A stretch of 32,790 nucleotides of DNA from positions 1 through 32,790 of the IMG/VR virus record IMGVR_UViG_3300031951_000737. One strand, written 5' to 3'. Both the position numbers and the translations under genes were made by a program. Shown piece by piece: positions 17,134 through 32,790 of the stretch (position 1 is its first letter; each line of letters opens with the position of its first letter). The notes beneath the pieces were generated by a model that worked only from the letters and a program-made list of their open reading frames with translations, was not told the DNA's origin and ran no database searches. The DNA comes from a virus.

Positions 17134-17720
17134 TCTTTACCAAAAGCATAATTAATAGTTTGAATAAACGCTACTCGATTCATGCTTGTATCATTTGGGG
17201 CATAAAATTGCCATGAATTATTATTTGTATATCTACCTGCTAACCTGTTTTGCAAAATCAATTGTATGCTTGACGCACTAACTGTAATAGTGCCAAGATA
17301 ACCACGCACTTCTTCATACCATTGCTCACTAATACCAAATGAATTGACGTATCCATTAAAAAATTGATATAACCCGCCAGTGCCACCAGTGGTTAATAAT
17401 TCCCCATTTGCATTAAAAAACCCATGCCACATTTCAAGTTGTGCGCCTTTTATTTCCGTACCTAATACAAGCGCAAGCATTGTTGGGTCAATACCTGTTA
17501 ATGTTACTGTGGTTTCATTTGCAGTTGATTTAATATCTCTAGTTGCATTCCCAACTTTTACTAATTGCCCTAATGCGGTAAACGGCAATGCATCAACTGC
17601 CGGAACTGTTATTGCTGTTGGCGTAGTAGCAAAACGATAAGTTGCAGAAGGCGTAGTCATACGCACAAAATCCGCATAACGAATTGTGTTTGTATTTTGT
17701 ACTGGAGCAATGTTATTCAC
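17130..17720 (-). CDS. Tail hub-like protein
   Basis: A 196-aa beta-rich protein. VKVGNATRDIKSTANETTVTLTGID...GAQLEMWHGFFNANGEL...FFNGYVNSFGI.. and the end SSIQLILQNRLAGRYTNNNSWQFYAPNDTSMNRVAFIQTINYAFGKE resemble phage hub proteins of the DUF2163 / lambda L-like type (late LQNR-GR-T, YP-D---RV--IQ motif). The position after the tape measure and before the J-like tip supports a baseplate or hub role. I cannot see the usual C-terminal iron-sulfur cysteines of gpL. Confidence 0.6.
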   Translation of the reverse strand: MNNIAPVQNTNTIRYADFVRMTTPSATYRFATTPTAITVPAVDALPFTALGQLVKVGNATRDIKSTANETTVTLTGIDPTMLALVLGTEIKGAQLEMWHGFFNANGELLTTGGTGGLYQFFNGYVNSFGISEQWYEEVRGYLGTITVSASSIQLILQNRLAGRYTNNNSWQFYAPNDTSMNRVAFIQTINYAFGKE

Positions 17721-18397
17721 AGCACAACCTCATATCCTCTAAACTGTCCATTCCATTGAATGAATGAATCATTGGTCATTGGGATTAATGTGTAATCAGG
17801 ATAATCACGCAGCACTACTGGAAAAGTAATGCCTGTGTAATTGCTACCACCAATTGGTTGCGTTGTGCCATATTGCCCAATAACCGCTTCCATTGTTGCG
17901 CCTAATGTAGTCAATATGGTTCTATGCACTGGAATATTAACCGTTGTATCAACTCCACGTTGCACATCGGCAGTTGCTATATATGAATAACGATCAATCT
18001 GCAAAAAATCGCCTGTCTTTACAATGTATGCACTTGCAGAAATAGAAGGCAAACTTCCCAAAACAATAGTTTTATTTGCTGATGCTGTTTGGTATCTGCA
18101 AGCTGCAATTTGACCACTAGTCATATCGCCACGATAAGCAATATAGTTAAGCCATCCAGTAGTGCCAAAATTTAAATACTGTTCAGTGATTCTATCCGCT
18201 TCACGCAAACTAGATAACAAGCCACGATTTTGCGAATACAGCAAATAATTCATTGGCTTAATTGTGAATTCAAATGGTTGCACCGTTAAAACTTCGGCAG
18301 TGCTTATACGCATATTGCGTGACAGCATTTGCCCTGCAAATTTATGGTCATTAATACCAACCGATTCAGCAACAGATAAGATTGTTTGCAGCGACAT
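17717..18397 (-). CDS. Distal tail protein-like
   Basis: A 226-aa beta-rich protein directly after the tape measure, in the slot of the distal tail protein (Dit) or lambda M. The N-terminus is helical (LQTILSVAESVGINDHKFAGQMLSRNM), then an FEFTIKP strand and many short beta segments ending FIQWNGQFRGYEVVL. I do not recognise a named domain. The function rests on gene order and beta content. It overlaps the hub gene by 4 nt. Confidence 0.6.
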   Translation of the reverse strand: MSLQTILSVAESVGINDHKFAGQMLSRNMRISTAEVLTVQPFEFTIKPMNYLLYSQNRGLLSSLREADRITEQYLNFGTTGWLNYIAYRGDMTSGQIAACRYQTASANKTIVLGSLPSISASAYIVKTGDFLQIDRYSYIATADVQRGVDTTVNIPVHRTILTTLGATMEAVIGQYGTTQPIGGSNYTGITFPVVLRDYPDYTLIPMTNDSFIQWNGQFRGYEVVL

Positions 18398-18399
18398 AA

Positions 18400-20430
18400 T
18401 TACCTCGAAATTGGTACACTACGATTGGCAGATTGATATGATGCCCAAATCGCATTTTTATTTGCAGCTAAAAACTGTGTGGCAGATTGTGTGTCTATTG
18501 CACTCATATTTGCAATGTAATTGCCGTTCACTGTTATGCCATTATTGCCACCGCCTGCCGCAGCCATTTGTTGCCATGAGCCATTAGGTATAACAGTGCC
18601 AGAAGTTTGTGGAACAAATAATTCTGCGCCATTTTCACCAACAATAGTAGGTGAATCAATACGACCGCCAGATGCTTTTTTACCAACACCACTCATAATA
18701 AGACTTGCGCTAGGATTTGCACCACCGCCTGTAGGCATTCCACCAAAACTACTTATTATTGATCTTAATATCATGGATGCTTGCGCTCTCATTTCCATGA
18801 CAAGCAAATCTTTAATTACACTGCCGACAAAATCTTTAAACGCAAATTTACCTGTATCTACAAACCTGCGAATGGCAGTTTCCATATTAGATGTTACTGA
18901 TTCAAATGCAGCACGACCACGCAATGATGCTTTTTCAGCCGTTTCTGTATATTCCTTCATAGCTTCAGACCAACCTGCCGACCATGATTTTTGTCGCTCA
19001 ATAGATTTCTGCAAATTTTCATCTTCCATTTGATTCAATTGCAGAAAATAATCTCTTCTATTTGCTAATTCGGTTTCTATATAATAAACTTTCTTATCGT
19101 AAATTTCTTTTGCTCTAACTTGTTCAGAAGAATCTGCCCTTTCAAATTCTGCCAATGCAACTGCTTTAGCTTCCGTTGCTCTTTGCTCGATGTCTTTTAA
19201 TTTTTGCGCTTGGTCAATATTTAATTTGCGAACATTGTATTCATTCTCAGAAATTTTATATCGCTCACCCTCTAATTCAAGCAATTGCTTTTGATTGTCA
19301 AATTCATTTGACATTAACTCTGTATTAAGTTTATGCAATTCAAACATTTCTTTTAATTGAGCATTATATTTTGCTTGCCTGTCATAAGCCTTTGCAAGTA
19401 ATTCTTGAAATGCTTCTTCTAATTCTTTTGCTTTCTCTGCTTCTTTTTTTCTTTTTTCGGCAGCTTTTTCTGCATCTCTTTCTGCTTTTTCTCTTGCTGA
19501 TTTTTGTGCAGCTAATTGTTTATCGCTTAACTTTTTGTAGTCTGCACTTATGTCAGGAATGCCGCCTGCATTTTGCGGGAAAGATTGACCAACAAAAGAT
19601 TCTTTTTTTCTACTTGGTAAATTTAAATCTTTTAAAATTAAATCTTGTTGTGCTTGCTGTTTAGCAAACCAAGACATATCAGATTTTTGTATCTTATCTA
19701 ATTCTTTACCAAATTCTGCGGTGCTATTTATCCATGTGGCAAATGGTTGCGCTAATTTCTGCATCATCAAGCCAATGTTTTTCATTGCCTTTTCGATGTT
19801 TTCCCATGCCGCAGCATTATCCTCAATTGATTTAACTAATTCAGGGTCTTTAAATTCTTTGTATTTATCAACAAAATCATCCCAATTAACTGTCTTAATT
19901 GATTTGCCTAATAAATCTTGACCAAGAGAAAGCCGTTCGGTTGCTGATCTTGCTTCAGTTAATGCAGAAGCAACACGCCTAAATAATTCATCAAGTTTTA
20001 ATCTATCAACTTCCGCACCAGATATACCAAGCCGTTCAAATGATTTACGCATTTGATCGTTGCCTTCTCTTGCGGCATCTTGGGCGTTAGCAAGTTTTTG
20101 AAACATTGTTGACGCATCTTCAGCGTTACCGCCTGCGCCTTGCAATGCTGCTTGAGTAGCAAGAACTGATTCAACTGTTATATCTAATGCTTTTGCTAAA
20201 TCAGAATATTCATCTGCCTTTTGAAATGTTTTTGCTAGTGCTGCGGTTGTTATGGTTGCGGCAATGCCAACTTTTGTAAATGCGTCTGCAACTGCGTTTT
20301 CCCATTCGCGCATTTGCTTTTTTTGCTGATAAACAAACTCTCTTGTTTTACCAGTGGCATCATCCATGCCTTTAAGAAATTCGGAAGTGTTTATACCAAG
20401 ATAAACACCAAGACGCGCAATCAATGACAT
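18400..20430 (-). CDS. Tape measure protein
   Basis: A 676-aa protein. Residues 1-280 match phage tape measures (LGVYLGINTSEFLKGMDDATGKTREF; EYSDLAKALDITVESVLATQAALQGAGGNAEDASTMFQKL; RSATERLSLGQDLLGKS). Residues 290-490 are a charged coiled coil. The end has GGRIDSPTIVGENGAELFVPQ, a common tape-measure C-terminus. It sets tail length; at about 0.15 nm per residue it predicts a tail near 100 nm. It follows the chaperone G/GT genes, with HK97-gp10-like protein between, and precedes the distal tail genes. Confidence 0.92.
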   Translation of the reverse strand: MSLIARLGVYLGINTSEFLKGMDDATGKTREFVYQQKKQMREWENAVADAFTKVGIAATITTAALAKTFQKADEYSDLAKALDITVESVLATQAALQGAGGNAEDASTMFQKLANAQDAAREGNDQMRKSFERLGISGAEVDRLKLDELFRRVASALTEARSATERLSLGQDLLGKSIKTVNWDDFVDKYKEFKDPELVKSIEDNAAAWENIEKAMKNIGLMMQKLAQPFATWINSTAEFGKELDKIQKSDMSWFAKQQAQQDLILKDLNLPSRKKESFVGQSFPQNAGGIPDISADYKKLSDKQLAAQKSAREKAERDAEKAAEKRKKEAEKAKELEEAFQELLAKAYDRQAKYNAQLKEMFELHKLNTELMSNEFDNQKQLLELEGERYKISENEYNVRKLNIDQAQKLKDIEQRATEAKAVALAEFERADSSEQVRAKEIYDKKVYYIETELANRRDYFLQLNQMEDENLQKSIERQKSWSAGWSEAMKEYTETAEKASLRGRAAFESVTSNMETAIRRFVDTGKFAFKDFVGSVIKDLLVMEMRAQASMILRSIISSFGGMPTGGGANPSASLIMSGVGKKASGGRIDSPTIVGENGAELFVPQTSGTVIPNGSWQQMAAAGGGNNGITVNGNYIANMSAIDTQSATQFLAANKNAIWASYQSANRSVPISR

Positions 20431-20433
20431 AAT

Positions 20434-20982
20434 TTAACCTGTGTTTTTAGCCCGATATTTATTCAAAGCAATTTGTATTTCTTGCTTTAATTTTTCAGTA
20501 ACTTCATGTTGTTTGCTTTCCAATGCAGGGCGCAAATATGGTCTAGCTGCCATGCGTACAGTACCAAATTCTCTTTGCACTGCTAATGCTGATCGTTTAC
20601 TCATACCTTTAACATCAACAGTTTTGTTTTTATTTTTTGTACCAAACTCAACTGCCATTGCTCGCGCATCCGAAATATCACCAACATTCAATTTTGCGGA
20701 TACAGTAGCCATTATTAAATCGCCTTTTTGCACATACTTTGATCTTAAATCTTTTGGTCTAACTGGTCTTGCTGTTATTTTAAGTGTTCTTTTTAGTTGC
20801 CCTGTATCCTCACCATGCCCATGATATAAATTATCTTTTGCTTTTTGCAATACAACTTGCATGGATTTTCTAGCGGCAGGCACTAAAATATTTTTACGCG
20901 CATCTGTAACACCAAATTCTTTATTTATTTGGTCTAGCAAATATTCAAATTCTGCAAATCCAACTAAACTAGTTTTTGACAT
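20434..20982 (-). CDS. HK97-gp10-like tail completion protein
   Basis: A 182-aa protein. It has ILVPAARKSMQVVLQKAKDNL and HGEDTGQLKRTLKI near 30-72, then a beta segment, and REFGTVRMAARPYLRPALES--HEVTEKLKQEI near 136-170. This is the HK97-gp10 family layout (helix, GxLrxSi, AxPFlrPA). Such proteins join or complete the head-tail interface. Usually the gene sits between the head-closure and tail-terminator genes; here it lies after the tail chaperones, next to the tape measure. Confidence 0.8.
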   Translation of the reverse strand: MSKTSLVGFAEFEYLLDQINKEFGVTDARKNILVPAARKSMQVVLQKAKDNLYHGHGEDTGQLKRTLKITARPVRPKDLRSKYVQKGDLIMATVSAKLNVGDISDARAMAVEFGTKNKNKTVDVKGMSKRSALAVQREFGTVRMAARPYLRPALESKQHEVTEKLKQEIQIALNKYRAKNTG

Positions 20983-21322
20983 TTGTAAGGTTCTTATGTG
21001 AATCAGGCATCATTGAAATAAAAGCAAGCAACTTATTATTTACATCATTGCGTTTTTGTTCTTCAGTTAATGGCGCATAAATGTAATCATAAGCCAGACC
21101 AATTACATTTTGTAATTTATATGGTTGCTGATTTTGCGCTCTAATATAATTAAACACACCCGCAGTTAAACTACCAATAGAATTCAATACTTGCTTATTG
21201 CCAATAAACCCATCATTTATTGCAACCATTACTAACCTGTAATCATCCTCGCTCATTGCGTCTGGATTTGCACCATGCGCCAACATATATGCCCGCGCCT
21301 GTAGTCGCAATGAGCCAATTAG
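20969..21322 (-). CDS. T domain of the G/GT tail chaperone, made by -1 frameshift
   Basis: A 117-codon extension (first codon CTA at 21322-21320) in the -1 frame of the upstream G gene. It has no ATG start or ribosome site at its front; the only internal start candidate is a TTG inside the predicted stem. Fusion at the slippery site gives about 270 aa, close to lambda gpGT (279 aa). The sequence (LQARAYMLAHGANPDAMSEDDYRLVMVAINDG) is helical. In lambda the T part binds the tape measure or tube subunits during tail assembly. It overlaps the HK97-gp10 gene by 14 nt. Confidence 0.8.
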   Translation of the reverse strand, partial: LIGSLRLQARAYMLAHGANPDAMSEDDYRLVMVAINDGFIGNKQVLNSIGSLTAGVFNYIRAQNQQPYKLQNVIGLAYDYIYAPLTEEQKRNDVNNKLLAFISMMPDSHKNLTNVKN

Positions 21323-21328
21323 TTTTTT
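21251..21328 (-). promoter_or_regulatory. Programmed -1 frameshift signal
   Basis: On the minus strand the heptamer A AAA AAC (21328-21322) is in the correct frame (AGA AAA AAC TAA) at the very end of gene G. After a 6-nt spacer a perfect 10-bp stem is possible: GCTCATTGCG (21315-21306) with CGCAATGAGC (21260-21251), enclosing 45 nt. Heptamer, spacer and stem fit the known rules for -1 ribosomal frameshifting. Confidence 0.85.
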
Positions 21329-21780
21329 CTTGTTTCCTCATAATTTGGCGAAATTACTTCACCAATTTTTTTTGATATTTCTAATTGAACTGAAAACGGA
21401 AATTCAGTTTCAATTTCTTCATAAGTTAATTGCGACAAATCCGCGCCATCAATTACAGGCACTAGCAATTTAAACATTTCAACAATTCGCGCATTTGTTT
21501 GTGCTGTAATCTGCGCCATTTCTTTCATTGATTTGTCGTTAAATATTATGTCATCATCTAAAAATTTAAAATTTTCACCTTCTAAAGTGTCTTTTTTTTC
21601 TAGCAAAGGCGCACATAATTTATCGTAATGGCTTTGCCATTCAGTATTTTTAATGCGTGTATTCATTTCTTCATACTCTGAAGCAAGCGGAACACGCACC
21701 CGCAACTTTTGCCCCGCCATCATAAAGTCACGAATTCTTATGTTTTCAGTATTAATTTTTAGGGATTCTGATAGTTTCAT
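21319..21780 (-). CDS. Tail assembly chaperone G
   Basis: A 153-aa helical protein (lambda gpG is 140 aa). MKLSESLKINTENIRIRDFMMAGQKLRVRVPLASEYEEMNTRI has the beta start and E-rich helices of G-type chaperones, and EMFKLLVPVIDGADLSQLTYEEIETEFPFSVQLEISKKIGEVI is a typical end. G and a minor GT product coat the tape measure and recruit tube subunits before assembly. The last codons hold the slippery site. The gene sits between the tail tube and tape measure genes, as expected. Confidence 0.82.
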   Translation of the reverse strand: MKLSESLKINTENIRIRDFMMAGQKLRVRVPLASEYEEMNTRIKNTEWQSHYDKLCAPLLEKKDTLEGENFKFLDDDIIFNDKSMKEMAQITAQTNARIVEMFKLLVPVIDGADLSQLTYEEIETEFPFSVQLEISKKIGEVISPNYEETRKN

Positions 21781-21783
21781 GTC

Positions 21784-22011
21784 TTATCCTTTTTTAATAA
21801 TGACTGTATATATTTCATTGTTTAGCCGTACTACATAATCGACTATTTCTTGTGGTGACATCTTATCGGCATGGTTAGCTGCAATTGAATGAGCCAATGC
21901 AATGCCAGTAAGTTTTTGCTGCGGAAATCCAAACCAACTTTTAGGCGCAGTTAATGATTGCTCTAATAAATAGCCTAATAAATCATTGCTTGATTGAATG
22001 TTTGTTGTCAT
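21784..22011 (-). CDS. Small hypothetical tail-module protein
   Basis: A 75-aa helical protein (MTTNIQSSNDLLGYLLEQSLTAPKSWFGFPQQKLTGIALAHSIAANHADKMSPQEIVDYVVRLNNEIYTVIIKK). It follows an intrinsic terminator 12 nt upstream and precedes the G chaperone gene by 3 nt. The family is not recognised; a minor tail or assembly role is inferred from position. Confidence 0.62.
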   Translation of the reverse strand: MTTNIQSSNDLLGYLLEQSLTAPKSWFGFPQQKLTGIALAHSIAANHADKMSPQEIVDYVVRLNNEIYTVIIKKG

Positions 22012-22023
22012 ATATTTTAATGT

Positions 22024-22043
22024 AAAAAAGCCCCCGAAGGGGC
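22024..22043 (-). terminator. Intrinsic terminator with TTCG loop after tail tube genes
   Basis: On the minus strand GCCCC-TTCG-GGGGC (22043-22030) is followed by six T (22029-22024). The TTCG tetraloop makes it very stable. It sits 6 nt past the second tube gene stop. Downstream tail genes would need readthrough or antitermination. Confidence 0.85.
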
Positions 22044-22049
22044 ATTGTT

Positions 22050-22568
22050 TTAGTTGTTAGACCAACCGTATTGGTTACCTCTAGGATGTATCGTAAATAC
22101 ACATTTAGCTTCTGCGCTTGGGTCTGATTGAATCTGGAATTCAGACACGCGACCATTGAACGCATAAGCAACTGTGTTTGCTCCATCAACCGCAGCAATT
22201 ACAAATGTGCGATCAATGATGCCGCTTTGTGAATCACCACGAATCAGCAACAATGCAGCATCCGATGGATTCCACGCAGCAGTTACAGATAACGAAGTTG
22301 GTGCAGATTGCACAGGAATTTTATCGGATTGGCGTGAACCCGCGACAGCATAGTTTACAACGCCATCATCTTGACCAAACGCAGGTATGCTTTCAACTGG
22401 AACTAAAACGCCTGCCGCGCCTGTACCGCCTGCGCTAGTGCCAACAATAGTCGCAACTTGTGCAGACCATACAGATAGATTTGCAGTTGTTAATGTTGTT
22501 GGGTTTGCGCCTGTTTGCATAAATAGCGAAGCAGCAAAGCCGGGAAGAACTCTATTAGGTAACGCCAT
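22050..22568 (-). CDS. Major tail tube protein, copy 2
   Basis: A 172-aa tail tube-type protein starting MALPNRVLPGFAASLFMQ. It is a paralogue of the next gene upstream: from PVESIPAFGQDD to the end about 110 of 116 residues are identical, while residues 15-58 differ and this copy is 9 aa longer with a Gly/Ala-rich insert (GTSAGGTGAAG). Seen: near identity in protein but many silent DNA differences. Tube proteins stack in hexameric rings to form the tail. ATG 22568 follows AAGGAAATTTATC. An intrinsic terminator follows its stop. Confidence 0.8.
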   Translation of the reverse strand: MALPNRVLPGFAASLFMQTGANPTTLTTANLSVWSAQVATIVGTSAGGTGAAGVLVPVESIPAFGQDDGVVNYAVAGSRQSDKIPVQSAPTSLSVTAAWNPSDAALLLIRGDSQSGIIDRTFVIAAVDGANTVAYAFNGRVSEFQIQSDPSAEAKCVFTIHPRGNQYGWSNN

Positions 22569-22580
22569 GATAAATTTCCT

Positions 22581-23075
22581 TTATACGTTATTTGACCAAC
22601 CGTATTGGTTGCCACGAGGATGAATAGTAAACACGCATTTTGCTTCCGCACTTGGGTCACTTTGTATTTGAAATTCTGATACGCGACCATTGAAAGCATA
22701 ATAAACAATGTTGCTGCCATCTACTGCGGCAATAACGAATGTGCGATCAATAATTCCACTTTGTGAATCACCGCGCATTAAAAGCAGCATTGTGTCGGAA
22801 GGATTCCATGCGGCAGTAACAGATAAAGATGTTGGTGCTGATTGCACTGGTATCTTGTCTGATTGACGAGAACCTGCAACTGCGTAATTAACAACACCGT
22901 CATCTTGTCCAAATGCAGGTATTGATTCAACTGGCAATTGATTTGCACTAATAGCAATTGCAGCCACATTAGCTAATGTCGATAATTGAGTAACTGTTAA
23001 TGCAGTAGGGTTTGAAGTTGGTTGTGCGTAAAGTATTGCAGCAAATCCGGGTAGAACTCTATTTGGTAGTGCCAT
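22581..23075 (-). CDS. Major tail tube protein, copy 1
   Basis: A 164-aa tail tube-type protein starting MALPNRVLPGFAAILYAQ. It shares the sequence VNYAVAGSRQSDKIPVQ and SGIIDRTFVIAAVDG with copy 2, which lies 12 nt downstream. Its variable segment (residues 15-47) lacks the Gly/Ala insert. It lies after the tail terminator-type gene, where the major tail protein is expected. A strong ribosome site (GAGGAAAAATC) suggests high output. Which copy dominates the tube cannot be told from the sequence. Confidence 0.82.
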   Translation of the reverse strand: MALPNRVLPGFAAILYAQPTSNPTALTVTQLSTLANVAAIAISANQLPVESIPAFGQDDGVVNYAVAGSRQSDKIPVQSAPTSLSVTAAWNPSDTMLLLMRGDSQSGIIDRTFVIAAVDGSNIVYYAFNGRVSEFQIQSDPSAEAKCVFTIHPRGNQYGWSNNV

Positions 23076-23106
23076 GATTTTTCCTCGAAAAAGTTAAAAG
23101 TCTGTC

Positions 23107-23523
23107 TTATGTCGGAATATCCATTGTGCAATCAAGATAAACTGAATGTAAATTTATATCGTTCTCGTATGAATTATAAAGAAAATCAATATCAAGTTTA
23201 CTAATATAAAAACCAGTTACCCCACCGAACTGCCCAGAGTATCCATGCAATGCTTGTATTATCGTGTTTGCTATGCCGAACGCATCTTGCAATGTTCCGG
23301 CATAAATATTGGTTTGGAATATAGGTCTGTCTATACCCTTCACCGATTGCGTTGTGCCTGTATAAACATCTTGATGCACATTACGCAAATTCCATGTTAT
23401 AAACTTTTGCTGTGACGCAAAGTTTCTATTGAAAGACGCATACACTGGCACAGGACTAGCAGTAGTAGTTAGCTGCGCTTGTATTGCCTTTGCATAATCT
23501 AATACGTTATTTTGTGTAGCCAT
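23107..23523 (-). CDS. Tail terminator-like protein
   Basis: A 138-aa protein in the position of lambda U / DUF3168-type tail terminators: helix (VLDYAKAIQAQLTT), VPVYASFNRN strand, FITWNLRNV, then DAFGIANTIIQALHGY helix and a beta pair ending VYLDCTMDIPT. Such proteins cap the tail tube and join it to the head. The call rests on the alternating helix and strand layout and gene order (between head closure and tube genes). No exact family match is claimed. Confidence 0.65.
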   Translation of the reverse strand: MATQNNVLDYAKAIQAQLTTTASPVPVYASFNRNFASQQKFITWNLRNVHQDVYTGTTQSVKGIDRPIFQTNIYAGTLQDAFGIANTIIQALHGYSGQFGGVTGFYISKLDIDFLYNSYENDINLHSVYLDCTMDIPT

Positions 23524-23526
23524 TTT

Positions 23527-23868
23527 TTACACCGAAGTTGATGGGTCATTGTGGTAACACAAAAATGTAACGTGCATCCTATCATTTGATTCAATCGCAC
23601 TATCAATACGCCAATCTAAATTGCGCCATGTGATTGAATACAAATTTTGATTATCGTAAATATCTCTTGTATATGGCGTGAAATTAAAAGTTAAATTAAT
23701 CATGCCTGCATAAACACGATATTTGTCGGTAATCTTTAAATCGTTTTTTACTTCCTTAACTTCAGCTTTACTATTAAATTTTAAAGTTTTAGTTGTAACT
23801 GCTTCACCATATTCATTAGTAGCAAATGAAAGGTCATAAACATTTACATCTTCATATCTTTTTACCAT
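23527..23868 (-). CDS. Head closure-like protein
   Basis: A 113-aa small beta-barrel-like protein (VNVYDLSFATNEYGEAVTTKTLKFNSKAEVKEVKND...DIYDNQNLYSITWRNLDWRIDSAIESNDRMHVTFLCYHN). This follows the phage head-tail joining / SPP1 gp16-like pattern, with the late Y.V.w....I..i...dr....f.C motif. It stops the packaged DNA leaking out before tail attachment. It overlaps the connector gene by 1 nt (ATG inside the stop region). Confidence 0.68.
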   Translation of the reverse strand: MVKRYEDVNVYDLSFATNEYGEAVTTKTLKFNSKAEVKEVKNDLKITDKYRVYAGMINLTFNFTPYTRDIYDNQNLYSITWRNLDWRIDSAIESNDRMHVTFLCYHNDPSTSV

Positions 23869-24527
23869 TACATCACCAATGGTTTATATGGTCTTAATAA
23901 AGTATCAACGCCTAATGGTATTTGTGCAAGTTGACCAACTGTTTCACCAACTGCGGAACGGTTATTATATAAATGCGTAAACCACAATAAACCTGCTTGT
24001 TTAATAACTGGATAAGTTGCTAATGGTGATGCGGCAAGCGTATAAGTTGCAATGACAGGTGAAGTCATTTGCGGATTAATTGCGCTCGGCAAATCTGTAA
24101 CAATTATCTTTTGTCCAGTTGGGTCATAATAATAAGCAGATGGATTTACTGTAGTTAATACTGTTGGCGTTGAATCATTGTAATAAGCAACTGAATTAAT
24201 TGTCACTCCACCTTGTGATGTTTCAGGCAAATCAAGTGACAATGGTGAACCATATAAAGCAGACGCACCATAATAAACTTTGTATTGAACGCTAGTAATG
24301 GACAATCCTAGATAATCCTCAATAGCCATTCTTATAGCTAACTCTAATGCAGTTAGGTATGTGTCTTGGCTAGTGTCAGAATACAGGTTTAATTGATTTC
24401 TAATTTCAGTAAGCGTCAACCACGCAGTCGCAATATTACGGTTGGTCTGTTCAAACCAATCATAATTGAACGGATTGCGTGTAGGCGCAAGCTGTACAAA
24501 TCCTAAACCTGTTTCTTGGGATGCCAT
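23868..24527 (-). CDS. Head-tail connector (gp6-like)
   Basis: A 219-aa protein. It has the HK97 gp6-like connector pattern: LTLTEIRNQLNLYSD--QDTYLTALELAIRMAIEDYLGLSI, then a beta insertion (VTINSVAYYND; YYYDPTGQKIIV) and VIKQAGLLWFTHLYNNRSAVGE at the end. These proteins form the ring under the portal. The N-terminal 36 residues are an unusual extension. It lies directly after capsid gene 2. Confidence 0.8.
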   Translation of the reverse strand: MASQETGLGFVQLAPTRNPFNYDWFEQTNRNIATAWLTLTEIRNQLNLYSDTSQDTYLTALELAIRMAIEDYLGLSITSVQYKVYYGASALYGSPLSLDLPETSQGGVTINSVAYYNDSTPTVLTTVNPSAYYYDPTGQKIIVTDLPSAINPQMTSPVIATYTLAASPLATYPVIKQAGLLWFTHLYNNRSAVGETVGQLAQIPLGVDTLLRPYKPLVM

Positions 24528-24532
24528 AATTT

Positions 24533-25585
24533 TTAAGTTTCAATAGAACGAACACCTGCAAATGGGTCACGAACTGTGCTTACCATACGTTTTTCGCCAT
24601 ACATTGTCACAAAACCGGGAGCTGTTTGTTCCATAGCTTGAATAGACATTTCTTCTACATCAGCAATAGATAAGAACCTTGCCCAATCAGCGAGATAAAC
24701 AGATTTATTTCCTACTGTGCCAATCGGACTAAGGTAAGGATTTGGTATTACAGGAAAACCAAATACATGAGTTAATGAGCCTGCATTATCTGCGCCATTT
24801 TCTACAAACGCATAACTTGCACCATTGCCGCCACCGCCATGAACGTAATTGCGCAAAGCAACAATTGCTGTTGGATGCATCATCCATGCAGTAGTTGGTG
24901 ATGACCAATATTGACTAGGTAGAGCATTAGCCATATCAACTAATGTTTCATGTTCAAGTGCGCCAGTGTTATAACCTACAGTCGCAATAGTATGCCGACC
25001 ATTTGTAATTGCTGTGCCACTTGTACCAAATGCAGATACAGCACCCGCAGCACCAAGATATGAATTTAAACCACGTAAACCATTTACGCCACCAGTGCTT
25101 GTAGTTGTGCTACCTGCTTGATCGTTATTTAAGCCCATTGATGCGCCTTCAATCTGCGCAAATTCAAGTGCTAAATCTTGAATCAATTCTGCTTCTAATC
25201 CGTTTACATCCGATAGCACAGCAGTACGAACTGGGAATTGCGCTGTTATAACTCTAGTCGGCAATTGCCAAATGCTAGTGTTAATGTTTGGTGAACCACT
25301 ATCAGGCGTGAACACATATCCAAAAGGATTTGTGCTATTAGCTGCATTACCTGTCTTTGCTACAAATTGAACGTCAGACATATTTGGCGTTTTAATATTG
25401 CGAGCAAATTTTCTAAATGGGTTTGCATAACGATATGCAGCAAACACATCATCAAAATATGTACGACCACCAACGCCTGAACCACTGCCAGTAAGTGCCG
25501 ATGCTTCACGCAAATCAATGGTGACCTTATCGCCTGTTTCAAGCGTATGTTTAATACCTGCAATGATTTTTTCGTTGGCTTTCAT
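24533..25585 (-). CDS. HK97-fold capsid protein 2, lacking the delta region
   Basis: A 350-aa capsid paralogue. From EASALTG (residues 27-33) onward it aligns with capsid 1: GGRTYFDDVFAAYRYANP, IWQLPTRVITAQFPVRTAVLSDVNGLEAEL, LNNDQ, GVNGLRGLNSYLGAA, VYLADWARFLSIAD, and TAPGFVTMYGEKR...DPFAGVRS. Only 26 residues precede that point, against 108 in capsid 1, so the scaffold/delta region is missing. I chose ATG 25585 because GGA lies 5 nt before it; at ATG 25594 the AGGGA touches the start. It follows an intrinsic terminator, so expression likely needs readthrough. Possible roles: minor vertex or facet subunit, or co-assembly. Confidence 0.85.
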   Translation of the reverse strand: MKANEKIIAGIKHTLETGDKVTIDLREASALTGSGSGVGGRTYFDDVFAAYRYANPFRKFARNIKTPNMSDVQFVAKTGNAANSTNPFGYVFTPDSGSPNINTSIWQLPTRVITAQFPVRTAVLSDVNGLEAELIQDLALEFAQIEGASMGLNNDQAGSTTTSTGGVNGLRGLNSYLGAAGAVSAFGTSGTAITNGRHTIATVGYNTGALEHETLVDMANALPSQYWSSPTTAWMMHPTAIVALRNYVHGGGGNGASYAFVENGADNAGSLTHVFGFPVIPNPYLSPIGTVGNKSVYLADWARFLSIADVEEMSIQAMEQTAPGFVTMYGEKRMVSTVRDPFAGVRSIET

Positions 25586-25603
25586 ATATTCCATTCCCTA
25601 AAC

Positions 25604-25636
25604 AAAAAAACCCCCACCAGTACATTCTGGTAGGGG
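25604..25636 (-). terminator. Intrinsic terminator between the two capsid genes
   Basis: On the minus strand CCCCTACCAG-AATGTA-CTGGTGGGGG makes a 10-bp stem (one T-G pair) with a 6-nt loop, followed by seven T (25610-25604). It begins 11 nt after the capsid 1 stop and ends 19 nt before the capsid 2 start. It would favour capsid 1 transcripts. Confidence 0.9.
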
Positions 25637-25646
25637 CAAACCGCTA

Positions 25647-27002
25647 TTAGGTAGCTGTACCAGTTGAACGGTAACGAACACCCGCAAATGGGTTGACTAC
25701 ACTGGTTGCTAGACGAGTTTCGCCAAAGAAGGTTATGAAACCGGGCAACGTCTGATCGTATCTACGCAATACCATGCTTAGACGATCAACGATAGTGTGG
25801 AAACGTGACCAATCAGCAAAGTACATTGGGTACAAGCTGTTTGTGCCTGCGCTACCAGTTGTTGCTTGTGATGGATTATCAACATACTTATTAACAACAA
25901 CATCAAAGCCAAGCAATTGACCAACAATACCATCAGCACGAGCCAAACCATCTACATAGATTGGGCGACCTTGTGTATCTACTAAGCCACGAATCTGTTG
26001 CAGCAATACAGGATTAATTACAAACTTAGTTGTAGGTGTCCAATATTCCTGTGGCAGAGAGTAGATAAAATTAACTACGTCTTTGTAAGTGATGTTTGCA
26101 GCACCAACAGTATTTGCATTGGTAGTAAGCTGATCATAAGTAGCAAGCGAATGCAAACCACTAGTAGAGCCAGTGCCACTATTGCCAAAAGCTGCGGTAG
26201 TAACTGAACCGCCTGCATAAGTAGCTGCCGCACCTGCGTATTGATCCAAACCTCGTAAACCATTCGTTCCCCCAAATGGGTTATTAACACCTTGTGCAAC
26301 TTGGTCATTATTTTGAATCATTGATTGTGCTTGTGATTGTGAGAATTCAAGCAGCATATCGCTAACAACATTAGCTTCTAAGCCATCAATATCATCTAAA
26401 GCTGCGGTACGGATTGGGAACTGTACGTTCAAATCTTGCAGCACTAATTGCCAAATGGTTGTATCTTCAGTGGTTGCTGCACCATTGTTTTGAATAGTGT
26501 AACCCCATGCTGCTCCTGCATTACCAGTTTTAGCACGGAATTGATAAGAAGAACCATCGGTTGCAACTTCACGAGAAACGCCACGCATAGGATTAGCTAA
26601 ACGCAGTGGTGCGAATACAGGGTCATAAGCAGTACGACCACCTTGATTGTTACCGCCACCTGTCAGTGCTGATGCTTCTTTTTGGAAAGCAGCATATTGT
26701 TCAGCATCTTCAAATAGCTTAACTTCTTTTTCTACACGAGAATTTGATTTGTAGAATGAAGAAAGTTGTTCAGCAACTTTACGATTTACGTCAACCATTA
26801 CGCCTGCATTTGCACGAATGATTGAAGGCGCACCAACTTGTGCAACCTTTGCTTCTAGTGCAGCAACTTTTTCTGCGAACTCTGCTTTAGCAGCTTCAAC
26901 TTGTGCAGTTGCTTCAGCAATTTTTTCTGTTACCAGTGCTTCGGTTTCAGATTTAACTTTAGATTCAATTGAATCTAGCTTTTCAGTGATTTTATCTAAC
27001 AT
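25647..27002 (-). CDS. HK97-fold major capsid protein 1 with N-terminal scaffold domain
   Basis: A 451-aa capsid precursor. Residues 1-55 are an Ala/Glu/Lys coiled coil and residues 56-108 complete a delta (scaffold) region of about the same length as in HK97 gp5 (about 103 aa). The shell domain starts near EASALTG (109-115), close to a likely protease cleavage point. Features include the N-arm, GGRTAYDPVFAPLRLANP, WQLVLQDLNVQFPIRTAALDDIDGLEA, GTNGLRGLDQYAG, FADWSRF and LPGFITFFGETR. It follows the protease gene by 18 nt, the usual order. It probably forms most of the shell. Confidence 0.93.
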   Translation of the reverse strand: MLDKITEKLDSIESKVKSETEALVTEKIAEATAQVEAAKAEFAEKVAALEAKVAQVGAPSIIRANAGVMVDVNRKVAEQLSSFYKSNSRVEKEVKLFEDAEQYAAFQKEASALTGGGNNQGGRTAYDPVFAPLRLANPMRGVSREVATDGSSYQFRAKTGNAGAAWGYTIQNNGAATTEDTTIWQLVLQDLNVQFPIRTAALDDIDGLEANVVSDMLLEFSQSQAQSMIQNNDQVAQGVNNPFGGTNGLRGLDQYAGAAATYAGGSVTTAAFGNSGTGSTSGLHSLATYDQLTTNANTVGAANITYKDVVNFIYSLPQEYWTPTTKFVINPVLLQQIRGLVDTQGRPIYVDGLARADGIVGQLLGFDVVVNKYVDNPSQATTGSAGTNSLYPMYFADWSRFHTIVDRLSMVLRRYDQTLPGFITFFGETRLATSVVNPFAGVRYRSTGTAT

Positions 27003-27020
27003 GATTATTCCTATTAAAAA

Positions 27021-27818
27021 TTAAGATAGACGTGCTTCTAAAGCCTTGAGCAATTCCTTTTGTTCAAGATACTCTAAAAACTCTTTTGCCGCATCCGATT
27101 CAGCATCTCGCATTTCGGTAGTCGGTTCGACATTTACAGTTTCAACGTCACGTTTAGCTGTTGCCTTGCCAAAAATGGAAGCGGCAGTTGTCGCATCCTT
27201 TTTCGAAATCCCCGCTTCACGCAGAGCTTTCTCAAATACTTTTAGATTGAATGAGCCATCATCCCTAAAAAATTCTAATTTGTTGATGTTGGCTTTTGGA
27301 TTGTTTGGGTTCATGACAATTGACACTTCAGCCAATCCACCCTTAGTAATGCTGAAATAACCTTCTTCATCGGCATCAATGCCTGCTTGCAGCATATTGC
27401 CTTCAGCATCAACCATGCAATATTCGTCAGCGTATGCGCCAACAGAAACACCACCAACCATCATTGGCGATTCTTTCATGATTGTGTATAAATCTTTGCC
27501 TGCGCTTGTATTAACAAAGATATTTCCTTTGCCGATCATGCCTTCATCGGTAAATTCAAACTCATCCCATTGCCCTACAGGCATCGACATATCGTTATGT
27601 TGGAAATACATTGGCAGTGGTTTACCCATTGCGGCAAATTCTTTTGCCCACTGTTTAAATGCTTCAGGTTGATAATTAAACTTGCGACCGTCTGCGCCTT
27701 CTCTTGCGCCCCAAGTGGTAAGCATTGCTTCAATCTTGCCCATTGAATCCATTGATTCATCGGCAGATATGCCAAGCGCAACTTGGGATTCAAAAATAAA
27801 TGTGACATTTTTAGTCAT
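27021..27818 (-). CDS. Prohead maturation protease (HK97/U35 family)
   Basis: A 265-aa serine protease. The catalytic triad appears as H74 (YFQHNDMSMPVGQW), S125 (VGGVSVGAY) and E164 (GGLAEVSIVMNPNNP), matching the H/S/E pattern of the HK97 protease. Residues 185-265 are a helical, charged tail typical of the segment lost by self-cleavage (FNLKVFEKALREAGISKKDA). It cuts the delta region of capsid 1 during head maturation. The start at 27818 has AAGGTGA about 8 nt upstream and overlaps the 43-aa gene. Confidence 0.93.
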   Translation of the reverse strand: MTKNVTFIFESQVALGISADESMDSMGKIEAMLTTWGAREGADGRKFNYQPEAFKQWAKEFAAMGKPLPMYFQHNDMSMPVGQWDEFEFTDEGMIGKGNIFVNTSAGKDLYTIMKESPMMVGGVSVGAYADEYCMVDAEGNMLQAGIDADEEGYFSITKGGLAEVSIVMNPNNPKANINKLEFFRDDGSFNLKVFEKALREAGISKKDATTAASIFGKATAKRDVETVNVEPTTEMRDAESDAAKEFLEYLEQKELLKALEARLS

Positions 27819-27942
27819 GGAAAATCACCTTTTTTTGTTTCATGCCATTTGCCTGCATTGGCTTTTTAACTCGCTTATCCGCAGCTTGTTTTATTTTGTC
27901 GGCAATCTGTTTTTGCTTTGATTGCGATTGATTTGGTTTCAT
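27811..27942 (-). CDS. 43-aa basic protein between portal and protease
   Basis: A 43-aa ORF not part of either neighbour. The start overlaps the portal stop as ATGA, and its stop overlaps the protease start by 8 nt, so translation is coupled on both sides. It is rich in Lys, Gln and Arg (MKPNQSQSKQKQIADKIKQAAD, then KRVKKP), with no membrane segment. AGGCAAAGC precedes the ATG. A DNA- or scaffold-binding head protein is possible, but the function is unknown. Confidence 0.6.
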   Translation of the reverse strand: MKPNQSQSKQKQIADKIKQAADKRVKKPMQANGMKQKKVIFHD

Positions 27943-29345
27943 GCTTTGCCTGCTCTACCAGTTTTACCAACTGAACTAGTATTGCCGCCACCGCCTGTAT
28001 CTTGTGATGAAGAACCTGATATTGGTTCTTGTTTGCTGCCAGATTTATTTAAACTGTTGGCAATACTATCATCAATTTCTGCAAGCCCCAAATACTTTCT
28101 CGCTTCATTTGGTGTAAAAATTCCTGCGTTGACACCCGCCACAGAATAATTCATCTGGTCAAGTGGCGCACCTTTTAAAAAGTTTTCGGTTTGGAATTGA
28201 ATGTATAAGTTTGGGAATCCTTGCAACAAACTCATTTTTAGTTTTTGTTCTATGTTAGTCAGCAATGGTGACATTGTGCTTTTATAGAATTCATCTAGCA
28301 TTGATTGTGTATTGTTAAACTTACCTTCACCAACACTAATCATTTGTGGCGGTACACCAAACACGCCACAGATTCGTTTCATGGTTTGTTCTTTAAGTGC
28401 TGCTATATCTGCATCCTGAATTGAAAGCATATCGACAGGCATATATTTCATGCCATTATCAAGCAACATACCTTGACCGGGTTTTGATGGGTCAGTTGGT
28501 CTTGAGCCTGTCAATTGTGACCAACCTTCTTTTAATCGTGCAGCAATCTCTTTATATTTTGAATCAGGAATTACTTGATCAGTGACAAACAATCCGCTTG
28601 GCTTTGCACCATTCTGCATAACGTAGTTTGCATACAAATCAATGTCTTGATCTAAGCCGATCAACTCTGCAAGCAATGTGCCTTTATTCCAACCGCCTGA
28701 ACCTTGCCAACCCATTTCCATCAAATGTATTACCTGCCAATAATCTAATGGTTGATTCTTTGAAAAACCATAAGTAGGTGATGACAGCACATACATTGGA
28801 TAACGTGTTTCCGTTAATTGTGTAGTGATTAAAGTTGCATCTAATACATACATTTCTAATGGCGTTTGATCTGATTTGTTTTGATCTTTACGCCACAGCA
28901 CTGTGTAGCATTCGCCTGCCATATCTAACCACATCGAGAACTGATACCAGAATTCGTATTGGCTTTGGAAGTTGTTTGGGTTGGTTAATAAACTATAAAC
29001 TTGTCTAGCTTTAATTTTGTCACGTTGCCCGATTGATGGGTCATGGCAAGCATTAACCAATTGGTCTTTATCGTTGTATGCCATGATCTGAATTGGCAGT
29101 TGCGAAATTGCCCTTGCTTTAACTGCTAGGCAAGCCATCACCGTACTATTGCGGGACAGCACCGACATATCAACGGTTCTACCTGCTTGCGTTGCGCTAG
29201 ATGTGGTGACATACAGCATTTGCTGCAATGCTTGTGATGCGCCTGTATTACGCAGCACATTATTACCAAGCGCAGTTTGTCCGAATAACGTATTAGATTC
29301 TTTTTGGTTCTTATTTTTTCTATTAAAAATATCTAATAAAGCCAT
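27939..29345 (-). CDS. Portal protein (HK97 family)
   Basis: A 468-aa portal. Markers include VMACLAVKARAISQLPIQI, LLTNPNNFQSQYEFWYQFSMWLDMAGECYTVL, YWQVIHLMEMGWQGSGGWNKGTL, GAKPSGLFVTDQVIPDSKYKEIAARLKEGWSQLTG, ICGVFGVPPQMISVGEGKFNNTQSMLDEFYKSTMSPLLTNIEQKL, and GIFTPNEARKYLGL. The dodecameric portal is the vertex through which DNA enters and to which connectors bind. The last 40 residues are low-complexity Ser/Gly. It lies 10 nt after TerL. Confidence 0.95.
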   Translation of the reverse strand: MALLDIFNRKNKNQKESNTLFGQTALGNNVLRNTGASQALQQMLYVTTSSATQAGRTVDMSVLSRNSTVMACLAVKARAISQLPIQIMAYNDKDQLVNACHDPSIGQRDKIKARQVYSLLTNPNNFQSQYEFWYQFSMWLDMAGECYTVLWRKDQNKSDQTPLEMYVLDATLITTQLTETRYPMYVLSSPTYGFSKNQPLDYWQVIHLMEMGWQGSGGWNKGTLLAELIGLDQDIDLYANYVMQNGAKPSGLFVTDQVIPDSKYKEIAARLKEGWSQLTGSRPTDPSKPGQGMLLDNGMKYMPVDMLSIQDADIAALKEQTMKRICGVFGVPPQMISVGEGKFNNTQSMLDEFYKSTMSPLLTNIEQKLKMSLLQGFPNLYIQFQTENFLKGAPLDQMNYSVAGVNAGIFTPNEARKYLGLAEIDDSIANSLNKSGSKQEPISGSSSQDTGGGGNTSSVGKTGRAGKA

Positions 29346-29355
29346 GATTTAACCC

Positions 29356-31017
29356 TCAAAATGTTCTGAATCCATACCCGCCATGATCAACTGGATGATC
29401 TAATGAACAATGCATGGCAATAATTAGCGCAATAATACCATCAACTTTCGCAGATTTATCAGCTTCATTCTTACGAATTTTTATGTTTCCGTTTACATCT
29501 TCATACACTTCGCAGTTACTTAGCTGCCAACCGACAAATGGGTTGCCATCATGTTTAATACTTTTGCTTAAAATTAATTTTTCTAAATGCTTTGATGGGT
29601 TGCTTAGTACCGCCATGCCCTGTCCAACTTTTTTAACTGGCATTGCTTGATCATGTAATCGTGCAATTAAACTTGCTGCATTATAGGCATCATAACCAAT
29701 TTCTTTAGGGTCATGCTTTGCTGATTGCTCTCTAATGTAATCGCTGATTTCTCGATCATCCATTACATTACCTTGTGTCAAATGCAATATTCCTGAATCT
29801 TTAGCGTTTCTAAATATATCGTGATAATGCTGCGGCACATGATTCAATGCTTCTTCAGGTAAGAAGAATTTAAACTCTGCAAAGTAATCATCTTCTGCAT
29901 ATCTTTTTAATGTACAAACTGCATTTAAATCTCGCGTTGCTGCTAAGTCAAAACCAATAAACACTGCTTCAGGTTCTCGTTCATCTTTGCCTGTTGTGCA
30001 TTCATCCCAATGTGTACGATCAAGCCATGCTGAATTTGCGCTTACAAATACATTAAGAGTTTTGCAAAGGAATTCATTTAGCGTTGCAGGTTTAAATTTA
30101 GCTTCATTTGCCCTTGCAACAATAGCTTCTTCAAACACAGATATGCCATGCATAGGATTTGCCTTTGCCCATATTGCAGGGTTTTGCCAATCATCTTGCG
30201 GGTCTAAACCGTACAGCAAACCAAACCATTTAGGGTTATCTGGTGCTTCGCCAGATAGCATGGTTTGAAGCATCAATAAATCCTCATGAAACTTTGTGTC
30301 TTTAGTGAAACTTGCGGTAGTAATGTAAATGCGTAGTGGGTTCTTCCTTGCCACCATACCTGAATGCAAAACCTCGATTGAGTTTCTATCTATGATCTGT
30401 GCAGCTTCATCAATAATGGCGCACGATGGATTTAAACCATCACCACTCTTTTTGGTATCTCGTGACAATGCTTTAAACATTGATTGCGAATCACCTATTT
30501 TTGTAATGTGATGTTTTTGTACGTTATACAATTTCTGCACTTCTGTCGGCATGGATTCAATCAAACCTAATGCGCTAGTAAATACAATGCTTGCCTGATC
30601 TCTACTTGTCGCTAGTGTATAAACCTCTGAACCTTTTTCACCAAACATCAATTCATAAAGACCAATGACAGCAATCAAAGTTGATTTGCCTGCCTTGCGA
30701 GGAATGAAAACAATCACATCCGACACCATGCGTTTATTCTTATCCTTCTTAGACCAAAAGCCATATATGCCGCAAATTAGTAGGATTTGAAATGGTTCAA
30801 GTAAAAGTGGTTTGCCTGCGTCTGCACCTTTAGCGTGTTTAAGCAGTGATGCAAATTGCAGGAAATGATCAACTGCCGCAGGTTGAAACTCCCATTTCCA
30901 CTCTTTATTTTCTATTTGATTAAGGAATCGTTGACACGCAAGCAGCACATTCCGGCAAACTAGTATTTCGCCCTTCACTACTTGTGTGGCGTAGATAACG
31001 CCATCTTGCCACTTCAT
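29356..31017 (-). CDS. terL: Terminase large subunit
   Basis: A 553-aa packaging motor of the HK97-like Terminase_1 group. The ATPase has a variant Walker A PRKAGKST (about 106-113), Walker B CAIIDEA (about 199-205) and coupling motif ITTAS (about 232-236). The RNase H-like nuclease has GFDLAATRDLNAV (about 355-367), YDAYNAAS, and a late KVDGIIALIIA acidic position. It translocates and cuts concatemers. I chose ATG 31017, which overlaps the TerS stop as ATGA; a TTG at 31029 would add 4 residues. Confidence 0.96.
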   Translation of the reverse strand: MKWQDGVIYATQVVKGEILVCRNVLLACQRFLNQIENKEWKWEFQPAAVDHFLQFASLLKHAKGADAGKPLLLEPFQILLICGIYGFWSKKDKNKRMVSDVIVFIPRKAGKSTLIAVIGLYELMFGEKGSEVYTLATSRDQASIVFTSALGLIESMPTEVQKLYNVQKHHITKIGDSQSMFKALSRDTKKSGDGLNPSCAIIDEAAQIIDRNSIEVLHSGMVARKNPLRIYITTASFTKDTKFHEDLLMLQTMLSGEAPDNPKWFGLLYGLDPQDDWQNPAIWAKANPMHGISVFEEAIVARANEAKFKPATLNEFLCKTLNVFVSANSAWLDRTHWDECTTGKDEREPEAVFIGFDLAATRDLNAVCTLKRYAEDDYFAEFKFFLPEEALNHVPQHYHDIFRNAKDSGILHLTQGNVMDDREISDYIREQSAKHDPKEIGYDAYNAASLIARLHDQAMPVKKVGQGMAVLSNPSKHLEKLILSKSIKHDGNPFVGWQLSNCEVYEDVNGNIKIRKNEADKSAKVDGIIALIIAMHCSLDHPVDHGGYGFRTF

Positions 31018-31490
31018 TGCGGTTGCCAACCTTTTAAGAAATCAGCAAGTGGTGATGCATCCTCTAACTTGTTTGCCGCTAATCTTGATTTAGGAGTTAG
31101 CCCCAATTCATTCATTAGCTTAATGCAATTTTCCATAGCCTTATTTGAAATTGCAATATAAGGATTTGGCGCAAGGGTTTTGCCATTATTTATTTTAATA
31201 ACCAATGGATGTTTGTCTTGCTGTACCTGTGCATCAACATAAACCTGCATTTGATTTGCAAGCATAGCAAGCGTATGACGATCTTGCTCAGAACCTATTC
31301 CGTAAACATCGTAAAGATAATTTGCTGTTTCTTTTACAAATTTCTCTTTATTAAATAATTCAGGTTGCGACACCCATTCAGCAAAAGGAATTCTTGCTTT
31401 GATTTTTTCAGGCAGCATGATTCCAACATTCATGCCTTTGCTGCCATGAACGCCATGCACCTCTGGCGGTAGTTTATTGTGTGCTGCCAT
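31014..31490 (-). CDS. terS: Terminase small subunit (P27-like)
   Basis: A 158-aa protein. The C-terminal half TLAPNPYIAISNKAMENCIKLMNELGLTPKSRL is diagnostic of phage P27-family small terminases, with a helical N-terminal DNA-binding part. It recognises the packaging site and recruits TerL. It overlaps the methyltransferase gene by 17 nt and TerL by 4 nt. The site it recognises may be near the repeats at 32702-32737, which is inference. Confidence 0.9.
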   Translation of the reverse strand: MAAHNKLPPEVHGVHGSKGMNVGIMLPEKIKARIPFAEWVSQPELFNKEKFVKETANYLYDVYGIGSEQDRHTLAMLANQMQVYVDAQVQQDKHPLVIKINNGKTLAPNPYIAISNKAMENCIKLMNELGLTPKSRLAANKLEDASPLADFLKGWQPQ

Positions 31491-32670
31491 TAATTAACTC
31501 TGCTTTCTTGCCGGTAAATTCTTCCCATCGTTTGACTATAACGTCACAATACTTTGGGTCTAATTCCATCAGTCTAGAGTAACGACCATTTTTTTCTGCT
31601 GCTAATAATGTTGTGCCGCTACCGCCAAAACTATCCAAAACAATATCACCGCCTTTTGTATTATTAAGCATTTGATATTCAAAAAGCGCAACTGGTTTCA
31701 TTGTTGGATGTTCGCCATTTCTGCTTGGCTTATCAAACTCAAGAATAGTTGTTTGTTTTCTATCTGTTGCCCAAAGATGCCCCGCGCCTTCTTTCCATCC
31801 ATAAAGACAAGGTTCGTGCTTCCAATGATAATCCTGCCGCCCCATAACCATTGTTGATTTTTTCCAAATAAGGCATTGGCGAACTTTCCATCCCGCATCG
31901 GATGCTGCACCACGAAAGTTATATCCTTCAGAATCTGCATGCCAAATATAAAATACAGCACCAGCCTTCATTACAGTATCAGCGGTTACATAAGCATCAC
32001 GTAAAAATTGTCGAAATTGATCGTTGCCCATGCTGTCATTTTGAATTTTTAATGCATCTTTAGTTTTTCCTTCATACGCTACATTATAAGGTGGGTCAGT
32101 TAACCACATGTCAACAAGTTGACCATCACACAATTTTTCCATGTCTGTAACGCTACAAGAATCCCCGCACATTAATCTATGTTTGCCAAGTTGATAAATG
32201 TCACCTAATTTTGTTTTAGGTTCATCAGGCACATCAGGTACGGCATCCTCATCCGTTAAACCTTCATTTATTTGTTCAGGCGTTAAGGCATCAATCTCTT
32301 TTTCATCAAAGCCAGTAAGCGCAAGATCAAATCCTTCTAATTCCAATTCTTCAAATTCAAGCGCAAGCATATCGTTATCCCAACCTGCATTTAATGCAAG
32401 TTTGTTATCCGCAATAATTAATGCTTTCTTTTGCGTTGGCGATAAATGAGATAACTCAATCACAGGAATTTTTTTAAGCCCAAGTTTTCTGGCAGCAGCC
32501 AAACGCCCATGCCCCGCAATGATGCCTGCTTCGCCATCCACCAAGATTGGGTTAGTCCAACCAAACTCTTTAATGCTTGCCGCAATCTGAGCAACCTGCT
32601 CATCGCTATGCGTGCGGGAATTCCTTGCGTAAGGAATTAATTTTTCAATTTCAATTTCTTGTATTTTCAT
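31474..32670 (-). CDS. ParB-DNA methyltransferase fusion
   Basis: A 398-aa fusion. Residues 1-95 are a ParB/Srx-like nuclease-type domain (IEKLIPYARNSRTHSDEQ, then IIAGHGRLAAARKLG). A linker rich in acidic residues follows. Residues 155-390 form an N6-adenine/N4-cytosine methyltransferase with DPPY at 192-195 and the SAM site DSFGGSGTT near 343-351, plus the HPTMKPVALFEYQM motif. There is no matching restriction enzyme nearby, so it is probably an orphan phage methylase protecting DNA or marking packaging sites. AAGGTAAAAA precedes ATG 32670. Confidence 0.93.
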   Translation of the reverse strand: MKIQEIEIEKLIPYARNSRTHSDEQVAQIAASIKEFGWTNPILVDGEAGIIAGHGRLAAARKLGLKKIPVIELSHLSPTQKKALIIADNKLALNAGWDNDMLALEFEELELEGFDLALTGFDEKEIDALTPEQINEGLTDEDAVPDVPDEPKTKLGDIYQLGKHRLMCGDSCSVTDMEKLCDGQLVDMWLTDPPYNVAYEGKTKDALKIQNDSMGNDQFRQFLRDAYVTADTVMKAGAVFYIWHADSEGYNFRGAASDAGWKVRQCLIWKKSTMVMGRQDYHWKHEPCLYGWKEGAGHLWATDRKQTTILEFDKPSRNGEHPTMKPVALFEYQMLNNTKGGDIVLDSFGGSGTTLLAAEKNGRYSRLMELDPKYCDVIVKRWEEFTGKKAELINGSTQ

Positions 32671-32790
32671 TTTTTACCTTGCGTCTTAAAAAAATTTTTC
32701 ACGTTTAGGGAAATCCTTTTTGCGTTTAGGGAATTCCCCATGACCAATTTTAACCTCCCCATAGCCTAGCTCTATATGCACCAAATTGCA
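32671..32790 (-). promoter_or_regulatory. Upstream region of the late operon with direct repeats
   Basis: The end of the window, without a gene. CGTTTAGGGAA occurs at 32702-32712 and 32723-32733; extended to 15 bp the copies differ by one base (CGTTTAGGGAAATCC and ...TTCC). The 21-bp step is two helical turns. On joining the ends this lies between the DnaA boxes and the methylase-TerS genes. It could be a late promoter element, a terminase recognition site or an initiator site. No clear -35/-10 pair is seen. Confidence 0.45.

Follow-up and report, generated by a model that had tools for sequence, protein, structure and literature searches.

Nearly all tailed phages have one capsid gene. The phage considered here has two, C1 and C2, in tandem, and the locus raises the question of whether the two proteins divide the work of building the head and, if so, how. 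The window, the whole stretch of DNA analysed, is the linear IMG/VR record IMGVR_UViG_3300031951_000737 (positions 1-32,790; 32,790 bases), from a freshwater-type phage whose closest isolate is Methylophilaceae phage P19250A (KX815270). Its structural genes are encoded on the minus strand, and their order is the usual one: terminase, portal, S78 protease, C1, C2, head-tail adaptor, further connectors, and two tail-tube-like genes (Table 1).

Table 1. Head genes of the window, parts of the capsid proteins, and the intergenic hairpin
Feature	Coordinates	Strand	Basis and remarks
Terminase large subunit	29356..31029	-	PF20441 / PF03354
Portal protein	27939..29345	-	PF04860, E 2.1e-60
Prohead serine protease	27021..27818	-	PF04586 (Peptidase_S78), E 2e-8; expected remover of scaffold parts
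C1, major capsid protein of the HK97 fold, scaffold domain at the N-terminus, 451 aa	25647..27002	-	PF05065, E 6.7e-25
C1 tower (helical), residues 1-56	26835..27002	-	AF2 helix 2-55; columns present in C1 only, in no C2
C1 spoke, residues 68-97	26712..26801	-	AF2 helix 68-85, strand 92-95; counterpart of HK97 76-103
Intrinsic-terminator-like hairpin	25600..25637	-	11-bp stem, 6-nt loop, T run; in the C1-C2 gap
C2, tower-less second capsid protein of the HK97 fold, 353 aa	24533..25594	-	PF05065, E 4.9e-17
C2 spoke, residues 6-28	25511..25579	-	Helix 6-20, turn, predicted strand KVTIDL; sequence conservation, AF2 helix
Head-tail adaptor, directly after C2	23868..24527	-	phrog_442, E 1.8e-11

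Both genes encode capsid proteins of the HK97 fold. The Phage_capsid profile PF05065 (curated cut-off 24.2 bits) matches C1 with 88.5 bits and C2 with 62.7 bits, and the two proteins are 38.8% identical over their aligned core in a pairwise comparison; alignment of a C1 profile with a C2 profile spans 317 columns at 41% (E 2.9e-82). The initial annotation had described two tandem HK97-fold capsid genes of 451 and 350 aa, with 108 and 26 residues, respectively, ahead of a common EASALTG motif. These matches and alignments confirm the pair, and the lengths hold as well, 350 aa (the numbering used for the 26 residues) corresponding to a C2 start at the ATG at 25585 and 353 aa to a start at the first ATG. 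The C2 open frame comprises 354 codons, so no start codon can add much length. A longer C2 made from an upstream start or by readthrough is unlikely, as the C2 frame is blocked a short way upstream, and TAATAG ends C1 ahead of the hairpin. An artefact of gene calling or assembly was rejected because many independent contigs and one isolate carry the same pair, and the arrangement is not due to chance because it is present in every relative examined that has room for it.

Loss of core HK97-fold elements from one copy, named by the initial annotation as a point that would tell against two functional capsid proteins, is not seen. The AF2 model of C2 (mean pLDDT 67.8, above 90 in the A-domain) shows the HK97 fold from residue 56 through to its C-terminus (Z 22), and structural matching finds it complete, with N-arm, E-loop, and P-domain segments of the shell type. 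Among solved structures C2 is closest to the RcGTA capsid (Z 22.2, rmsd 3.1 over 251 residues), followed by a cf-PICI capsid, Mycofy1, and HK97 (prohead II, Z 17.6). The C1 model, for which mean pLDDT is low (54), matches HK97 prohead I (8fqk, Z 15.2) and the RcGTA capsid (Z 14.7). By sequence, the closest solved relative of both proteins is the RcGTA capsid Rcc01687 (E 1.5e-8 for C1 and 2.2e-5 for C2). This complete fold makes a role for C2 as cement or decoration on the outside of the shell very improbable. Decoration proteins are often encoded beside the capsid gene, which would agree with the position of C2; those of known structure, however, have small unrelated folds, such as the Soc-like protein of JBD30 (PMC11445458).

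The pair is strictly conserved. IMG/VR holds 587 stretches that encode a C1 relative and 157 that encode a C2 relative, counts that overlap because the two families cross-recognise. C2 follows C1 directly in 206 of the 220 loci examined, a set that includes some contigs twice and yields 137 distinct C1 proteins (443-462 aa) and 147 distinct C2 proteins. Ten of the remaining 14 loci are truncated at a contig edge, one (L130) has a frameshifted C2, and three are distant single-capsid outgroups; outgroups and L130 aside, C1 and C2 are adjacent in every relative with enough sequence. The annotated phage collection contains one relative, P19250A, which carries both genes (62% and 54.5% identity) with the gene order and hairpin of the window. 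In this reference isolate C2 bears only the label "hypothetical protein", although it is probably a shell gene. A further cultured member is Venkman, which belongs to the same genus-level cluster as P19250A (PMC8163748).

Both genes are under purifying selection, with median dN/dS of 0.09-0.12 for C1 and 0.12-0.15 for C2; C2 evolves faster (median pN ratio 1.4). In the tree, C2 forms one clade with 100/100 support and a long stem, which together with the selection on both genes indicates that the duplication is old and that both copies have been kept. Rooting C1 against C2 was attempted with the single-capsid outgroups Bcep176, RHph_X2_25, and NatCom_9287, which are too distant. That C2 is a redundant or decaying duplicate is extremely improbable and is already contradicted by the evidence: its faster evolution and the frameshift in L130 would fit such a duplicate, but C2 is unbroken in every other relative examined that has enough sequence for it, its dN/dS is about 0.12-0.15, and it has an old single origin. 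The initial annotation had asked whether one copy is decayed in close relatives, and L130 is the one exception to an intact pair.

The C2 of L130 (5800-6752 of that contig) is broken by one frameshift in a single metagenome contig and reflects either real decay or sequencing error. Across phages, the distances of C1 and C2 correlate at 0.53 (partial correlation 0.20), with no excess over neighbouring genes, a point against the division of labour favoured below. C2 distances (entries L116, L112, and L126) correlate at 0.52-0.61 with those of other head genes, compared with 0.82-0.88 among those genes; this lower correlation may reflect separate exchange or the faster evolution of C2. In L026 (2197-2889), and in the same gap of L056, a frame judged by sequence to be a GIY-YIG-like homing endonuclease lies between C1 and C2. 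Relatives also occur in metagenome-assembled genomes (MAGs) labelled Alphaproteobacteria, Betaproteobacteria, Gammaproteobacteria, Rhodocyclaceae, and the archaeon Nitrosotalea (L154-L159), probably because phage contigs were assigned to the wrong bins. A search of 274 bacterial genomes for adjacent PF05065 pairs gave no other among 18 places, in a survey too insensitive to give a base rate, since it missed the second copy in G001 that a single-genome search recovered.

The N-termini distinguish the two proteins. In the cryo-EM structure of HK97 prohead I, scaffold residues 2-66 form trimeric coiled-coil towers, two per hexon, which also touch the portal; residues 76-103 form the spoke, a helix-turn-strand module lining the subunit and contributing a strand to the sheet of the P-domain, and the scaffold is cleaved at K103/S104 (PMC10275583). 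The AF2 model of C1 has the same layout, so that C1 carries an HK97-type scaffold in cis, with tower and spoke ahead of the N-arm; its structural alignment with HK97 prohead I begins at C1 71 / HK97 76. Heptad bias in the first 56 residues is 0.73, compared with 0.42 +/- 0.11 in shuffles, when 28-residue windows are scored for Ile/Leu/Val/Met/Phe only; a cruder score, in which the whole segment is taken and Ala counted, is not above shuffles.

C2 does not carry this complete scaffold, and the tower columns are empty throughout its 147 sequences. Its short N-terminus is nevertheless conserved (consensus MxITExILxGIKQTLETGDKVxIDLREASALTGSG): a helix, a GD turn, and the KVTIDL stretch lead into the EASALTG segment common to C1. 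Structural alignment of C2 starts at C2 7 / HK97 79 for HK97 prohead I and at C2 5 / D3 81 for D3 prohead I; pLDDT is about 50 in this N-terminal part, and the AF2 model leaves the spoke strand unassigned. What C2 lacks is thus the tower and not the whole scaffold, of which it keeps the last, spoke-like module. The initial view that only one of the two proteins has a scaffold domain was right for the tower and wrong in leaving C2 scaffold-free.

From these sequence features we consider it somewhat probable that C1 provides the hexons and the scaffold and that C2 is present in the shell as a minor component, most likely in the pentons. C1 would be the abundant hexon subunit and the sole carrier of a coiled-coil tower. 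With it C1, as the scaffold domain does in HK97, would form the inner scaffold, gather hexon subunits into groups of three, and bring in the portal. C2 would enter the virion in small numbers with the spoke, the part that locks the HK97 subunit in the prohead state, but with no tower. A protein of this kind would suit the pentons because towers that form trimers go evenly into the six subunits of a hexon (2 x 3) and not into the five of a penton. The mismatch is an argument of fit and not of need, since HK97 places one tower-bearing protein in both hexons and pentons. The S78 protease would then clip tower and spoke from C1 and perhaps the spoke from C2. For scale, JBD30 has a 37-kb genome and a T=7 head of 415 capsid subunits (PMC11445458); with the same T-number, the phage studied here would have 360 hexon and 55 penton subunits.

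The main rival to placing C2 at the pentons is a mosaic shell, in which C1 and C2 would mix within capsomers at variable positions and C2, by thinning out the scaffold, would adjust shell stability or the internal volume. A natural precedent is found in the Family 2B encapsulins, two-component shells whose HK97-fold paralogues are encoded in a single operon (PMC12407261), and C1 and C2 have in common not only the fold but many residues, 49 columns being at least 95% identical across both families together. We regard free mixing as unlikely, however, in view of differences that are fixed over the 137 C1 and 147 C2 sequences and that argue for distinct roles: three loops of 7-8 residues specific to C1 (259-265, 294-300, and 380-387), a 3-residue insertion (TNP) specific to C2 in the E-loop region, seven sites fixed for different residues, and a tower found in no C2. 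The proposal of two intact, specialised capsid paralogues made by the initial annotation is supported, and its interpretation as a whole partly so.

The gap between the genes, mostly 50-67 nt long, contains a GC-rich hairpin with a T run behind it; in the window the hairpin spans 25637-25610, and no other terminator-like site in 16000-32790 has as long a stem or as many G-C pairs. Stems of 7 pairs or more occur in 105 of 110 different intergenic sequences of relatives (3.7% of shuffles), and 102 of the 110 have a T-rich tail as well (1.0% of shuffles). The hairpins comprise 70 distinct stem-loop sequences, and the mean folding z-score over 82 different C1-C2 intergenics is -3.6. Double-sided changes occur at 61 of 158 stem positions in a crude covariation count that groups stems by length only; an Rfam search gave no match. 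In T7, terminator T-phi follows the major capsid gene 10, with readthrough into later genes (PMC5592923). The C1-C2 hairpin may likewise terminate most of the transcription, or shield the C1 mRNA, either of which would lower the output of C2 and of later products, and its conservation predicts C1 in excess over C2. As a penton protein C2 would need such a lower output, about 55 copies against 360 if T=7. The hairpin by itself indicates "less than C1" and gives no penton ratio, because the connector and tail genes sit behind the same hairpin.

A position behind this hairpin, at the expression level expected of connector proteins, and directly ahead of the head-tail adaptor gene could also be read as a sign that C2 acts elsewhere in the head: as a ring at the portal vertex or neck, in control of head size, or as an assembly factor not kept in the virion. 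We judge such a role quite unlikely, as C2 keeps the spoke and the fold elements for lattice contacts in the shell. We also know of no tailed phage in which an HK97-fold paralogue serves as a neck protein.

In the open-access literature, a hexon/penton arrangement of two paralogues has so far been demonstrated only in T4, in which gp23 (960 copies) has a 65-residue propeptide and gp24 (55 copies, at the vertices) a short one of 10-20 residues (PMC5694885). The initial annotation had set T4 apart in that both of its proteins are processed, a contrast weakened by the shortness of the gp24 propeptide. T4 and the phages described here (206 loci) resemble each other in encoding together two conserved HK97-fold paralogues, one with a long and one with a short propeptide or scaffold part, and the copy-number asymmetry of T4 agrees with that predicted for C1 and C2. 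The differences are that gp23 and gp24 are 17% identical (PMC12407261) and C1 and C2 39%, which points to a separate duplication; that T4 has a separate scaffold protein, gp22, whereas here the scaffold is in cis on C1; and that the C1/C2 phage has a genome of about 39 kb and roles predicted from sequence. If confirmed, C1 and C2 would follow the same principle as T4 with an origin of their own and the scaffold in cis on one partner. More tentatively, and with confidence a little short of even, we propose that the split of the scaffold (tower and spoke in hexons, spoke only in pentons) would set hexon or penton identity and the attenuator the copy ratio, making this a second, independently evolved two-protein HK97 shell.

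Other known systems share single elements of this arrangement. The in-cis delta domain of HK97 and D3 is the counterpart of the C1 N-terminus: tower, spoke, and core come in the same order, the S78 protease and portal genes lie directly upstream, and HK97 prohead I is the best structural match of the C1 model. Here, however, a second, tower-less paralogue follows, and in sequence there is very little resemblance to HK97 (about 13% in the structural alignment). The RcGTA capsid, closest to both proteins by sequence and to C2 by structure, differs in forming its shell from one capsid protein, and full-length similarity is weak. Family 2B encapsulins (Streptomyces lydicus) have two adjacent HK97-fold paralogues that form one shell (PMC12407261), but this is a cellular compartment with no scaffold, portal, or protease, and its components mix irregularly; C1 and C2 have neither the cNMP-binding insertion nor the cargo enzyme operon of that family, and match only Phage_capsid within a phage head operon (portal, protease, terminase). 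The SEA-PHAGES label "major capsid hexamer protein" on actinophage RazzB (PMC13014141) suggests that other such cases may be annotated. A small lineage with a tower-bearing and a tower-less capsid protein offers a compact natural test of how hexon or penton identity is chosen and of the purpose of the trimeric towers seen in HK97, and the cultured phages P19250A and Venkman make direct testing possible.

The same phages contain a second duplicated structural protein. Two adjacent tail-tube-like genes (22050-22568 and 22581-23075, minus strand) have a mutual identity of 80%; the gene is present in two copies in 114 of 174 matching loci and in one copy in 60, some of which may be truncated, and P19250A, judged from gene order, apparently has one. 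Right after the tail-tube pair, at 22030-22043, comes another terminator-like hairpin, again GC-rich and with a T run, so that such hairpins trail both C1 and the tail-tube genes, the products of which are expected to be the most abundant.
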